Below are positions 8,278 through 35,635 of a stretch of DNA of 35,658 nt, in pieces (position 1 is the first letter of the stretch; every line of letters starts with the position of its first letter). Origin of the DNA: Polaromonas sp. (GTDB taxonomy: Bacteria > Pseudomonadota > Gammaproteobacteria > Burkholderiales > Burkholderiaceae_C); contig NZ_JABBPF010000018.1 of assembly GCF_012927415.1 (NCBI RefSeq), positions 1 through 35,658 of the forward strand, written 5' to 3'. Under the pieces are notes generated by a model. That model did not search any database, was not told the origin of the DNA, and worked only from the letters and a program-made list of their open reading frames with translations. The translations under genes and the position numbers were made by a program.

Positions 8278-8284
8278 GCCTTTA

Positions 8285-8345
8285 ATTGCTATTTTTTTTA
8301 TAGCTGCTTCTGCCCGTAGTCCCTGGACTAGCGGGCATTTTTACT
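8285..8345 (+). repeat. Dispersed Comamonadaceae-type short repeat (copy A), intergenic
   Basis: The left part is TTGCTA, eight T, ATAGC, a short palindrome (GCTAT...ATAGC). The right part is a hairpin with arms TGCCCG-T-AGTCC and GGACT-AG-CGGGCA, followed by TTTTTAC. A sequence of the same length and layout, about two-thirds identical by eye, lies inside the NAD(P)HX repair gene at 34631-34689, and another that aligns without gaps lies at 15671-15721. From memory, short elements of this form are very common in Polaromonas and Rhodoferax genomes, but I could not search for them. Confidence 0.65.
8311..8344 (+). terminator. Hairpin terminator after the two-component operon
   Basis: The stem TGCCCG-T-AGTCC / GGACT-AG-CGGGCA has a two-base loop and is followed by a run of five or six T. 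It begins about 34 bases after the response regulator stop and ends just before folD. It forms the right half of the dispersed repeat at 8285-8345, so the repeat seems to serve as the terminator. Confidence 0.6.
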
Positions 8346-8359
8346 TGAAAAGCCGAAAA

Positions 8360-32037: not shown

Positions 32038-33297
32038 ATGAGGGTCGCAGTGATCGGAGCAGGCATCATCGGCATCACCACCGCTTATGAGCTGGCGATG
32101 GATGGCCACGAAGTCACCGTGATTGAGCGAAGGGGCGCTGCAGCGGAGGAAACCAGCTTTGCCAACGCCGGTATCGTTGCACCTGGCTACATCGCCCCCT
32201 GGGCCGCGCCCGGCATGCCTGGCAAGGTTCTTGGCTACCTTTTCAGGCGTCATGCGCCGGTCAAGCTGAGCCTGCCGCTGTCGCGCCAGCATCTGGCCTG
32301 GATGTGGCAATGGCTACGCGCCTGCGAACTCGAAACCTACCTGGCCAATCGTTCGCGCCTGCAGCGGCTGGCTTTTTACAGCCGTCAAAGGCTGCATCTG
32401 CTGACGGCCGAGCGGGAGCTGGAATACGAACGCAGTCAGGGATACATGGTGCTGCTGCGCTCTGAAAAAGATATCAAGCTGATGCAGCCTGGCCTGCAGG
32501 CGCTGCGGGAAGCGGGGGTTGCGTTCAGTCAGGTAGATGCCGATGAGACCCACAAGATCGAGCCCGCGCTCAACCCTGACACCCCGTTGCTGGGTGCGGT
32601 GTATTTACCCGATGATGAAGCGGCCAACTGCCGCCAGTTTGCGCTGCTGCTAAAGAACGAAGCCCAGGGCATGGGCGTTAATTTTGAGTTCAATACGACT
32701 GTAGTCCAGTTAGATCGGGCACAACCAGCTACTCTCTTCATAGCGGGCAGCGAACTGCCATTTGCCTTTGACCGTGTTGTGATGTGCGCCGGACTGGCAT
32801 CTGCCGAACTCCTCAAGCCGCTGGGCCTGAAAATCCCCATGATCGCGGTTCATGGCTATTCCATCACCGCGCCGATTCGTGAGCCGCTGAATGCACCGCG
32901 CGGCGCGCTGATGGACGAGCGTTACAAAGTGGCTATTTCCAGGCTCGGCAACCGCATTCGCGTGGACGGGAGCGCAGAAATCGGCGGCTCGCTGGAACAC
33001 AGGCGGGAATCCTCCATCAGCACGCTGTACAAAGTTTTGCAGGACTGGTTTCCAGGCGCAGCACAGCTTTCAAGCGCCAGCGGCAGTGTGCAGATATGGA
33101 AAGGCGCGCGACCCATGTTGCCGGACGGCCCCCCGATTATCGGCAACAGCGGCCTGCCAGGTCTCTGGCTCAATCTGGGCCATGGTTCCAGTGGCTGGGC
33201 GCTGAGTTGTGGCAGCGCGCGCGCGCTGGCAGACCTGATGGCCGGAAAGCCACCCGAAATCGACATGGAAGGATTCGATATGGGTCGTTTAAGGTGA
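32038..33297 (+). CDS. dadA: D-amino acid dehydrogenase (DadA-like FAD oxidoreductase)
   Basis: This 419-residue flavoprotein of the DAO family probably oxidises D-amino acids to 2-oxo acids, passing electrons to the respiratory chain. The FAD site is the opening MRVAVIGAGIIGITTAYELA. The SFANAGIVAPGYIAPWAAPG block and the C-terminal WLNLGHGSSGWALSCGSAR segment are typical of DadA, and length is close to E. coli DadA (432). No alanine racemase (dadX) gene is adjacent. The substrate is inferred from the family. It starts 109 bases after the amidase. Confidence 0.88.
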   Translation: MRVAVIGAGIIGITTAYELAMDGHEVTVIERRGAAAEETSFANAGIVAPGYIAPWAAPGMPGKVLGYLFRRHAPVKLSLPLSRQHLAWMWQWLRACELETYLANRSRLQRLAFYSRQRLHLLTAERELEYERSQGYMVLLRSEKDIKLMQPGLQALREAGVAFSQVDADETHKIEPALNPDTPLLGAVYLPDDEAANCRQFALLLKNEAQGMGVNFEFNTTVVQLDRAQPATLFIAGSELPFAFDRVVMCAGLASAELLKPLGLKIPMIAVHGYSITAPIREPLNAPRGALMDERYKVAISRLGNRIRVDGSAEIGGSLEHRRESSISTLYKVLQDWFPGAAQLSSASGSVQIWKGARPMLPDGPPIIGNSGLPGLWLNLGHGSSGWALSCGSARALADLMAGKPPEIDMEGFDMGRLR

Positions 33298-34090: not shown

Positions 34091-35635
34091 ATGCAAAAAA
34101 TCTCCAGCGATTTCAGCCAGCCGCTTTACAGGGTGGCCACGACGCGCCAGATAGAGCGGCGGGCTGCGGCAGTCCTGCCGCCACACACGCTGATGCAGCG
34201 CGCCGGGCTGGCAGTAGCCCGGCTGGCGCTGGCGCTGGTGCCCAACGCCGGGCGCATCTGGATTGCCTGCGGACCGGGCAACAATGGCGGCGACGGATTT
34301 GAGGCAGCGCTGCATCTGCATCAGTGGGGCAAGGAAGTCGTCGTGACCTGGACTGGCCTCGCCGCAGGGAAGGACCAGTTGCCGCCTGATGCCCACGCCG
34401 CGCGGCAGCGCGCCCTGACGGCGGGCGTGCCAATGGCGGCCGAGCCGCCAGAGTCGTTTGACTTATGCATCGATGCCCTGCTGGGCATGGGTGCCACGCT
34501 GGATCCGGCACGGCCGAACACGGCGCAGATGCAGCGCTGGCTGGACCTGATGCAGGCCAGCGACGCGCCACTGCTCTCCGTTGATGTGCCAAGCGGACTG
34601 GACGCCGACAGCGGGTTCACAAGACGGAAATTTGCTATTAAATCAATAGCTTCTTATGCCGATAAAACGTGGATCAGGCCCACTTTTACCTTAAGTTTGC
34701 TGACATTGAAAGCCGGTCTGTTCACCGCCAGCGGAAAAGACTTCGCCGGTGAAGTGTGGTTTGACCAGCTCGGCGTCGAGTTCCCGGCCAGCGTGCCCGA
34801 CGCCTGGCTACTGGGCTCTGATCGCGCCGGCCAGCCAGCTAAAATGCAGGCTGCGCAAGCCAGTCACAAGGGCAGCTTTGGTGATGTTGCCGTGATTGGC
34901 GGCCAGTCCACTGCCACTTCCGCCACGCACATGACTGGCGCAGCCCTGCTGGCTGCCCGCGCTGCGCTGCATGCCGGGGCAGGCCGGGTTTTCGTGGCCT
35001 TGCTGGGCACCGATGGCCCCCGCGTGGACGCCCAGCAGCCGGAACTCATGTTCCGCGCGCCGGAAGCGCTGGATTTGAAAAAACAGGTCGTCGTGTGCGG
35101 CTGCGGAGGCGGGGAAGCGGTAAAAGCCGTCATCGCCAGGGTGCTTTCCTCGGCCACGCGGGCCGTCCTGGATGCGGATGCGCTCAATGCCATTGCGACG
35201 GACCCGCAACTGCAAACCCAGCTGAAAGCCCGCCATGGACGCGGATACAGCACCGTGCTGACCCCCCATCCGCTGGAAGCCGCGCGCCTGGGAGGAATGA
35301 CGGCCGCAGCCGTGCAAGCCGACCGGCTCGCCACAGCCGAGCAACTCGCCCAGCGCTTTCAATGTGTGGTGGTGCTAAAGGGTTCAGGAACTGTCATCGC
35401 CGGCCCGGGGCAGACCAGCATGATCAACTCAAGCGGCAATGCCTTGCTGGCAACTGCAGGCACGGGCGATGTGCTGACAGGCATGATAGCGGCCTGCCTG
35501 GCGCGTGGAATGAATGATTTTGAGGCGGCGTGCTGTGCAGTATTCACCCATGGCCACCGGGCCGAGATTTGGGCAATCGATTGCCCCGGGCAGACCCTGA
35601 CGGCATCAGCATTGGCCACCTGCGAGACCTGCTAG
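34091..35635 (+). CDS. nnr: Bifunctional NAD(P)HX epimerase/dehydratase
   Basis: This 514-residue metabolite-repair enzyme restores hydrated NADH and NADPH. The N-terminal YjeF-type epimerase domain has the ACGPGNNGGDGFEAA loop (about 59-73) and SVDVPSGLDADSG (163-175). The C-terminal ribokinase-like dehydratase begins near KGSFGDVAVIGG and has LTPHPLEAARL and the catalytic NALLATAGTGDVLTGMIAA block. The odd part is residues about 181-200, just after the epimerase core. They are encoded by a copy of the dispersed repeat, and the linker there is about a dozen residues longer than in E. coli Nnr as I recall it. The frame is intact, so the gene is probably functional. Confidence 0.93.
   Translation: MQKISSDFSQPLYRVATTRQIERRAAAVLPPHTLMQRAGLAVARLALALVPNAGRIWIACGPGNNGGDGFEAALHLHQWGKEVVVTWTGLAAGKDQLPPDAHAARQRALTAGVPMAAEPPESFDLCIDALLGMGATLDPARPNTAQMQRWLDLMQASDAPLLSVDVPSGLDADSGFTRRKFAIKSIASYADKTWIRPTFTLSLLTLKAGLFTASGKDFAGEVWFDQLGVEFPASVPDAWLLGSDRAGQPAKMQAAQASHKGSFGDVAVIGGQSTATSATHMTGAALLAARAALHAGAGRVFVALLGTDGPRVDAQQPELMFRAPEALDLKKQVVVCGCGGGEAVKAVIARVLSSATRAVLDADALNAIATDPQLQTQLKARHGRGYSTVLTPHPLEAARLGGMTAAAVQADRLATAEQLAQRFQCVVVLKGSGTVIAGPGQTSMINSSGNALLATAGTGDVLTGMIAACLARGMNDFEAACCAVFTHGHRAEIWAIDCPGQTLTASALATCETC
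34631..34689 (+). repeat. Dispersed repeat copy B inside nnr, in frame
   Basis: The segment runs TTTGCTATTAAATCAATAGC, then TTCTTATGCC, a short variable part, GTGGATCAGG, and ends CACTTTTAC. It has the length and block order of the intergenic copy at 8286-8345 and matches about two-thirds of its bases by eye. It encodes FAIKSIASYADKTWIRPTF in the nnr frame. The repeat carries no stop in this frame, which explains why the gene tolerates it. Confidence 0.6.

Follow-up and report, generated by a model that had tools for sequence, protein, structure and literature searches.

Short palindromic repeats known as RPE occur both between genes and, in frame, within 19 conserved protein genes, and coding palindromic repeats of this sort are found in Rickettsia and in some other bacteria, in the account given in PMC2229807. 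They are usually viewed as tolerated selfish DNA. Over-representation of the dispersed palindrome HIP1 in cyanobacteria may reflect methyltransferase-linked selection, as discussed in PMC4390886, a precedent for tying a dispersed palindrome to a DNA-reading enzyme. The DNA uptake sequences of the Neisseriaceae form species-level dialects, as described in PMC3630211. PMC3110155 gives counts of the Beta-proteobacterial repeat element (BRE) for Polaromonas and further Comamonadaceae, with some copies lying in coding sequences, and REP/REPIN sequences are described in PMC3116915 as small palindromic repeats that are mostly extragenic.

Here we analyse a dispersed repeat of a Polaromonas genome (G000) on the basis of a window of 35,658 nucleotides, contig C164 of an assembly of 3.65 Mb in 219 contigs. 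A first-pass annotation of this window had noted that 59 bases within nnr resembled an intergenic repeat at 8286-8345, and had read them as a short mobile repeat which inserted without breaking the frame and was kept as a surface loop. The features concerned are the following.

34091..35635, + strand: nnr, bifunctional NAD(P)H-hydrate epimerase/dehydratase (PF03853, PF01256; TIGR00196/TIGR00197; 2ax3)

34616..34687, + strand: extended nnr linker, residues 176-199, between the SGLDADSG and TLSLLTL motifs (Nnr codon alignments)

34628..34698, + strand: repeat copy within nnr (covariance model R1, 44.5 bits)

34634..34650, + strand: palindromic core GCTATT-N5-AATAGC, read in frame as A-I-K-S-I-A (sequence, translation, and a core kept in 107 of the genome's own copies)

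8282..8353, + strand: intergenic copy between what we take to be a regulator gene and folD (R1 65.4 bits; pattern match)

32038..33297, + strand: open reading frame of an FAD-dependent oxidoreductase, which we take to be DadA-like, holding a third copy (PDB matches to glycine oxidases)

32679..32757, - strand: third, decayed repeat copy, antisense in the DadA-like gene (R1 21.1 bits, E 1.5e-4 in the window)

By analogy, the closest in kind to this repeat appear to be the Rickettsia palindromic elements, since it is likewise both intergenic and in frame (22 of 126 copies lie in coding-like frames). It nevertheless differs from RPE as described in PMC2229807 in being about 65 bases long instead of 105-146 and in having no long full-length hairpin; furthermore, it belongs to another bacterial family, has dialect-like in-gene copies and occupies at least one site without added residues. 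In the genomes searched it is limited to one family of its order. It resembles the Neisseriaceae uptake sequences in its dialects but is far longer and rarer, whereas HIP1 has 8 bases and a high frequency, and the account in PMC4390886 that we drew on does not include inserted residues. BRE, by its description in PMC3110155, is about 90 bp long with a mean GC of 69% in Bordetella, in contrast to the approximately 28-50% GC of full-length copies here, and our R1 model matches nothing in 78 genomes of other families. Unlike REP/REPIN sequences, the repeat is little associated with a RAYT locus and its own copies are much diverged.

A core pattern, TTGCTATTN{0,10}ATAGCTNCTT, has 10 matches in this genome, both window places among them, and is present in 52 of the 81 genomes of a genus search, while the reversed pattern gave 0 matches in this genome and in all 81. 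The R1 covariance model, of 72 positions, was built from 35 copies chosen by this core, none of them from nnr, and gave 145 matches at E<0.01 among the best 150 of 1677 candidates in this genome, placing an AT-rich sequence of about 65 bases at 145 places at least. Conservation among 107 own copies is sharply uneven by column: the patches GCTAT, ATAGC, C--T, GGAC/GGGC/GCGC and ATTT, of which GCTAT/ATAGC forms the core palindrome, are separated by near-random columns, and the outer model columns 1-4 and 71-72 carry little information. At E<=1e-5, R1 matches were found in 44 of 61 genomes of the genus and in 51 of 150 genomes (47 of 141 genera) of a family sample, with top per-genome counts of at least 81 and at least 33, respectively. 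No match was found in 78 genomes of other families in an order sample, in which this genome was the sole match and the one other genome drawn from the same family had none. The repeat is a family-specific dispersed sequence, and we did not find a description of it in the literature searched, the scope of which excluded most subscription papers.

The DNA between the SGLDADSG and TLSLLTL motifs of nnr reads TTTGCTATTAAATCAATAGCTTCTTATGCCGATAAAACGTGGATCAGGCCCACTTTTACC, and its core codons GCT ATT AAA TCA ATA GCT encode AIKSIA as residues 182-187, so that the proposed in-frame reading is borne out. The segment agrees with the intergenic repeat at 40 of 61 alignment columns, a likeness that exceeds chance: it scored 13, against a maximum of 6 over 5027 other 59-mers of the window taken at every 7th position, none of which scored as high. 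Once the family had been built and window and genome scanned, the nnr copy scored far above coding DNA, with an E of 2.5e-13 for the window and of 2.6e-11 for the genome, where it ranks 30th of 150, which confirms the earlier observation that the segment is a copy of the repeat. The closest named Nnr among the matches listed is a protein from a Polaromonas MAG, at 67% identity.

The interpretation as a mobile insertion kept as a loop was only partly supported. A repeat copy does lie in frame, but signs of mobility in the form of near-identical copies, a clean empty/filled pair or target duplications were not seen. The low AlphaFold2 confidence at the site (residues 166-227 with pLDDT <50) is as expected of a flexible loop, although the model is poor in this region in general. 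Nnr may tolerate the repeat copy as such a loop.

The linker between the SGL and SLLTL motifs was indeed longer, as the first-pass annotation had stated: it has 39 codons here and 27-37 in 15 genomes of the same genus with no more than two model matches, 27-28 in eight of these. A usable nnr was available in 50 of 61 genus genomes, and its site was called repeat-like above a threshold of 16.2, the maximum over 159 coding control windows. Repeat-like nnr sites were found in 30 of 34 genus genomes with at least 10 matches and in 0 of 16 with fewer (Fisher 1e-9, kinship ignored); in these 16 genomes the motifs are 27-37 codons apart, and the same residues in homologues of repeat-poor genomes, which would have spoken against an insertion, were not encountered. 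G024, G042, G001 and, as a borderline case, G028 have repeats in the genome but no repeat-like nnr site.

An insertion private to this genome and absent from its neighbours, which the first-pass annotation had named as supporting evidence, was not supported. Sites resembling the repeat are present in nnr throughout the genus, as well as in several genera besides it. Outside the genus they are clear in L094, L095, L096, L098, L099, L104, L108, L110, L118 and L016 and barely so in L105. A repeat-like nnr site is absent from 5 of the 13 genomes outside the genus that do bear the repeat (L093, from this genus, left out). On a tree of 102 Nnr proteins from which the insert was excluded, the repeat-like state required 16 changes, compared to 33 for shuffled labels, a distribution which could reflect either an ancient state with many losses or several gains.

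A similar association was seen in a gene which we take to encode a CCA nucleotidyltransferase, where the site is repeat-like in 22 of 24 genus genomes with at least 10 matches and in 0 of 6 with fewer. The stretch is wholly missing in G005, G051 and G054, and in G003, G024, G031 and G041 the extra residues are kept in GC-rich codons. The repeat core was observed to lie over the RRDLTIN[SA]IA motif of this enzyme (L292-L321), whose residues are therefore spelled in repeat codons in repeat-bearing genomes. Upstream of this gene (L307, L308, L312, L313), G016 and G056 carry a copy at a shared position, which G038 retains in decayed form, and G024 also has a copy upstream of it; this points to vertical inheritance. 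In NadE (L322-L351), the linker length, judged by eye, is equal in about 20 of 30 rows across the family, and linkers of equal length were seen to consist either of repeat-like DNA (antisense) or of GC-rich codons.

The repeat is accompanied by extra residues in nnr and CCA, but not in the DadA-like gene. In all 23 same-genus rows the stretch of this gene that covers the repeat is 27 residues long, with a range of 26-30 outside the genus, and an alignment to 6pxs_A has only a 2-residue gap there. This constant length means that the repeat is in place without insertion. The repeat score of the site rises with the copy number of the genome (rho 0.61, n=22), and among the 23 same-genus rows GGAC is present in this genome alone, TGGGCT or TGGGCC in 9 and neither in 13. 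The site at 32679-32757 was also seen to be written in AT-rich codons and to be repeat-like in many genomes of the genus and in one other genus (L110).

In order to describe copies within genes, we used a set of 126 copies, obtained from 152 matches by removing those shorter than 40 bases or overlapping a better match; one place is counted twice in it (L134, L178), and about 24 weaker own-genome matches were left out. Open frames with coding-like codons on both sides bridge 22 of these copies, compared to 1334 of 1921 control positions, so that the repeat avoids genes even though about one copy in six lies in one. Eight of the in-gene copies are sense and 14 antisense, one of them with two possible frames; one of the 22 cases (L222) has no recognisable core and may be a false case. 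The exact reading A-I-x-x-I-A, which the palindromic core makes available on either strand, occurs in 14 of them. Repeat-bearing proteins include uroporphyrinogen-III synthase, RmlD, sigma-54, PurK, NAD synthase, a DAO-family oxidase, CCA nucleotidyltransferase, PseG, acetoacetate-CoA ligase, a Nif3-like protein and a DNA glycosylase, and presumably also PutA, BioC and ThiL. A PutA-like frame (L123, G000:C60) was found to be bridged by two repeat copies, 920 bases apart. The gene neighbours of 98 other copies, a set from which copies with short flanks were dropped and which includes one in-gene copy (L123:1501-1572), are co-directional in 60 cases, convergent in 23, divergent in 7 and undetermined in 8.

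The copies of this genome are diverged much as column shuffling would make them (standard deviation of pair identity 0.062 versus 0.055), with a maximum pair identity of 0.839, slightly over the shuffled range of 0.758-0.806, and no near-identical pair among 107. Nearest-copy identity is 0.695 for in-gene copies (n=15) and 0.730 for the others (n=92), and of the 30 column pairs with the strongest correlation 22 are no more than 4 columns apart. Taken together, these values give no sign of recent duplication or of conversion from a donor copy, to which copies within genes lie no closer than the rest do; we rejected recent conversion. A single search for an empty site, made upstream of a LysM gene, found none. 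A structured RNA was likewise rejected: the palindrome is invariant in the 35 model copies, which were themselves picked by the core, the own copies show no base-pair covariation, in-gene copies occur on both strands and the window has no Rfam match at the gathering score.

The codons of the nnr insert are unlike those of the remainder of the gene. ATA accounts for 29 of 54 isoleucine codons in the insert versus 47 of 413 elsewhere in nnr, and GCT for 79 of 170 alanine codons versus 255 of 3127. Extra conservation of synonymous codons was detected in one of eight repeat-bearing sets, an nnr set (p=0.006, uncorrected); the remaining four nnr sets and all three CCA sets showed none. Each site carries 59 bits of information, whereas 15.6 would be needed to mark 150 places, an excess which suggests common descent of the copies.

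The variable patch differs by genome, being GGAC here, GGGCT in G013 and GCGCA in G023 and G036; these dialect types were named by eye, and G047 and G060 were joined to G013 from one printed copy each. For each in-gene copy, we scored the 3' half against weight matrices made from the remaining copies of each genome; the matrices of other genomes comprised copies of whatever location, genic or intergenic, that of G000 included further in-gene copies, and G045, with 5 copies, was omitted. A genome of matching type gave the best fit in 6 of 6 cases for nnr and 5 of 5 for CCA, and strictly the own genome did so in 3 of 6 and 3 of 5, respectively. For nnr, the true assignment had a median rank of 3 among 120 permutations, and for CCA a median rank of 2 among 24. 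The nnr copy of this genome has GGATC, near but not exact GGAC. GGAC is present in 12 of the 15 full-length in-gene copies of this genome and in 80 of the 92 remaining full-length ones (13 of 16 and 79 of 91 after moving one in-gene copy). A genome-wide shift from TGGGCT to TGGACT was rejected as a cause, with counts of 157 and 91 in 238 kb here versus 175 and 109 in 249 kb of relatives. Contrasts independent of phylogeny number one in the genus and four in all, of which about three are concordant and none opposed, which is not significant; the changes of dialect may amount to two events, which were observed in two or three genes.

Retention of GGAC within genes, together with the ATA and GCT codons, fits sites held by recognition of the conserved patches better than it fits dead insertions. 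We consider it likely that nnr acquired, long ago, a dispersed sequence which belongs to one bacterial family and which has been kept there as DNA. The nnr copy would have been acquired in the ancestor of the genus or earlier and would now be held by a process acting on DNA, most likely a putative trans-acting factor which recognises the repeat sites; where the recognised sequence shifts in a lineage the sites would shift too, within and between genes, and where the system is lost they would decay to ordinary GC-rich coding sequence. That such a factor holds the in-gene copies of the dispersed repeat is a proposition we find evenly balanced. Its fuller version, in which a recognition sequence of Comamonadaceae type, about 65 bp long and present at about 150 places, has dialects that track a putative DNA-binding or uptake factor and can be written into genes at constant length, is put forward more tentatively, as one that may well be wrong. 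Support for maintained sites is weak once phylogeny is corrected for. Should a repeat that spans many genera, and that is carried by sigma-54, NAD synthase, the CCA-adding enzyme, PurK and Nnr, have in-gene copies resembling the current dialect of the genome, something besides selection on the protein would be acting on the DNA of these genes.

A selfish palindromic element of RPE type offers the most serious competing account, possible though in our view rather unlikely: a non-autonomous element would have inserted long ago in tolerant loops, frame-breaking copies would have been removed and the in-gene copies would be fossils. The palindromic core, the in-frame copies in conserved genes and the longer linkers of nnr and CCA are all as expected of such an element, as are the depletion in genes, the excess of convergent over divergent neighbours and the information per site, which is more than a mark needs. 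Fossils, however, should neither follow lineage dialects nor retain ATA and GCT codons. Near-identical copies are absent in this genome, the NadE linkers are of equal length in most rows, the copy upstream of CCA is common to G016 and G056 and decayed in G038, and one copy had no blastn match to plasmids or phages, a weak test at such divergence. The DadA-like site, at constant length, and the dialect-like in-gene copies in nnr and CCA fit simple mobile insertion poorly. Because residues are gained or lost with the repeat in nnr and CCA and the information per site is high, a mobile origin followed by maintenance through the putative factor is possible. The repeat may also account for odd low-GC loops in annotated proteins.

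We consider it improbable that the repeat is a DNA uptake sequence, whose copies, genic ones included, would by analogy be kept in lineage dialects by the preference of a competence receptor and by recombination. Dialects are known for uptake sequences (PMC3630211), and Verminephrobacter, which like Polaromonas belongs to the Comamonadaceae (PMC3110155), is reported in PMC4212676 to take up DNA in a way that hints at sequence specificity. The repeat, however, has about 150 copies of about 65 bases, compared to the thousands of copies of 9-11 bases in the accounts of uptake sequences we drew on, and the longer linkers in nnr and CCA also speak against it. A ComEC-type domain was found in 27 of 30 genomes whatever their repeat content, and ComEC is thus no discriminator.

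A REP/REPIN population driven by a RAYT transposase is more doubtful still, and we rejected it. Y1_Tnp matches were obtained in 30 of 30 genus genomes searched, but these include repeat-poor genomes, so that presence of the domain does not track copy number; of 20 stretches around Y1_Tnp genes, each 2.4-3.5 kb long, one contains the repeat, and this genome has no near-identical copies. Chance or codon-driven resemblance of the nnr segment to the repeat, for which an AT-rich stretch of low complexity in a loop might be invoked, can be dismissed as next to impossible, being refuted by the model scores in window and genome, the 5027-position comparison and the reversed-pattern controls of 0.

A minor observation concerns the Y1_Tnp matches themselves. 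The best match of this genome (L372, G000:C99:33430-33666), in a frame of 241 amino acids, is the weakest among the 30 genus genomes, at 28.6 bits, and the genome with the weakest match is also the GGAC-dialect genome among those with printed copies, which may be a coincidence.
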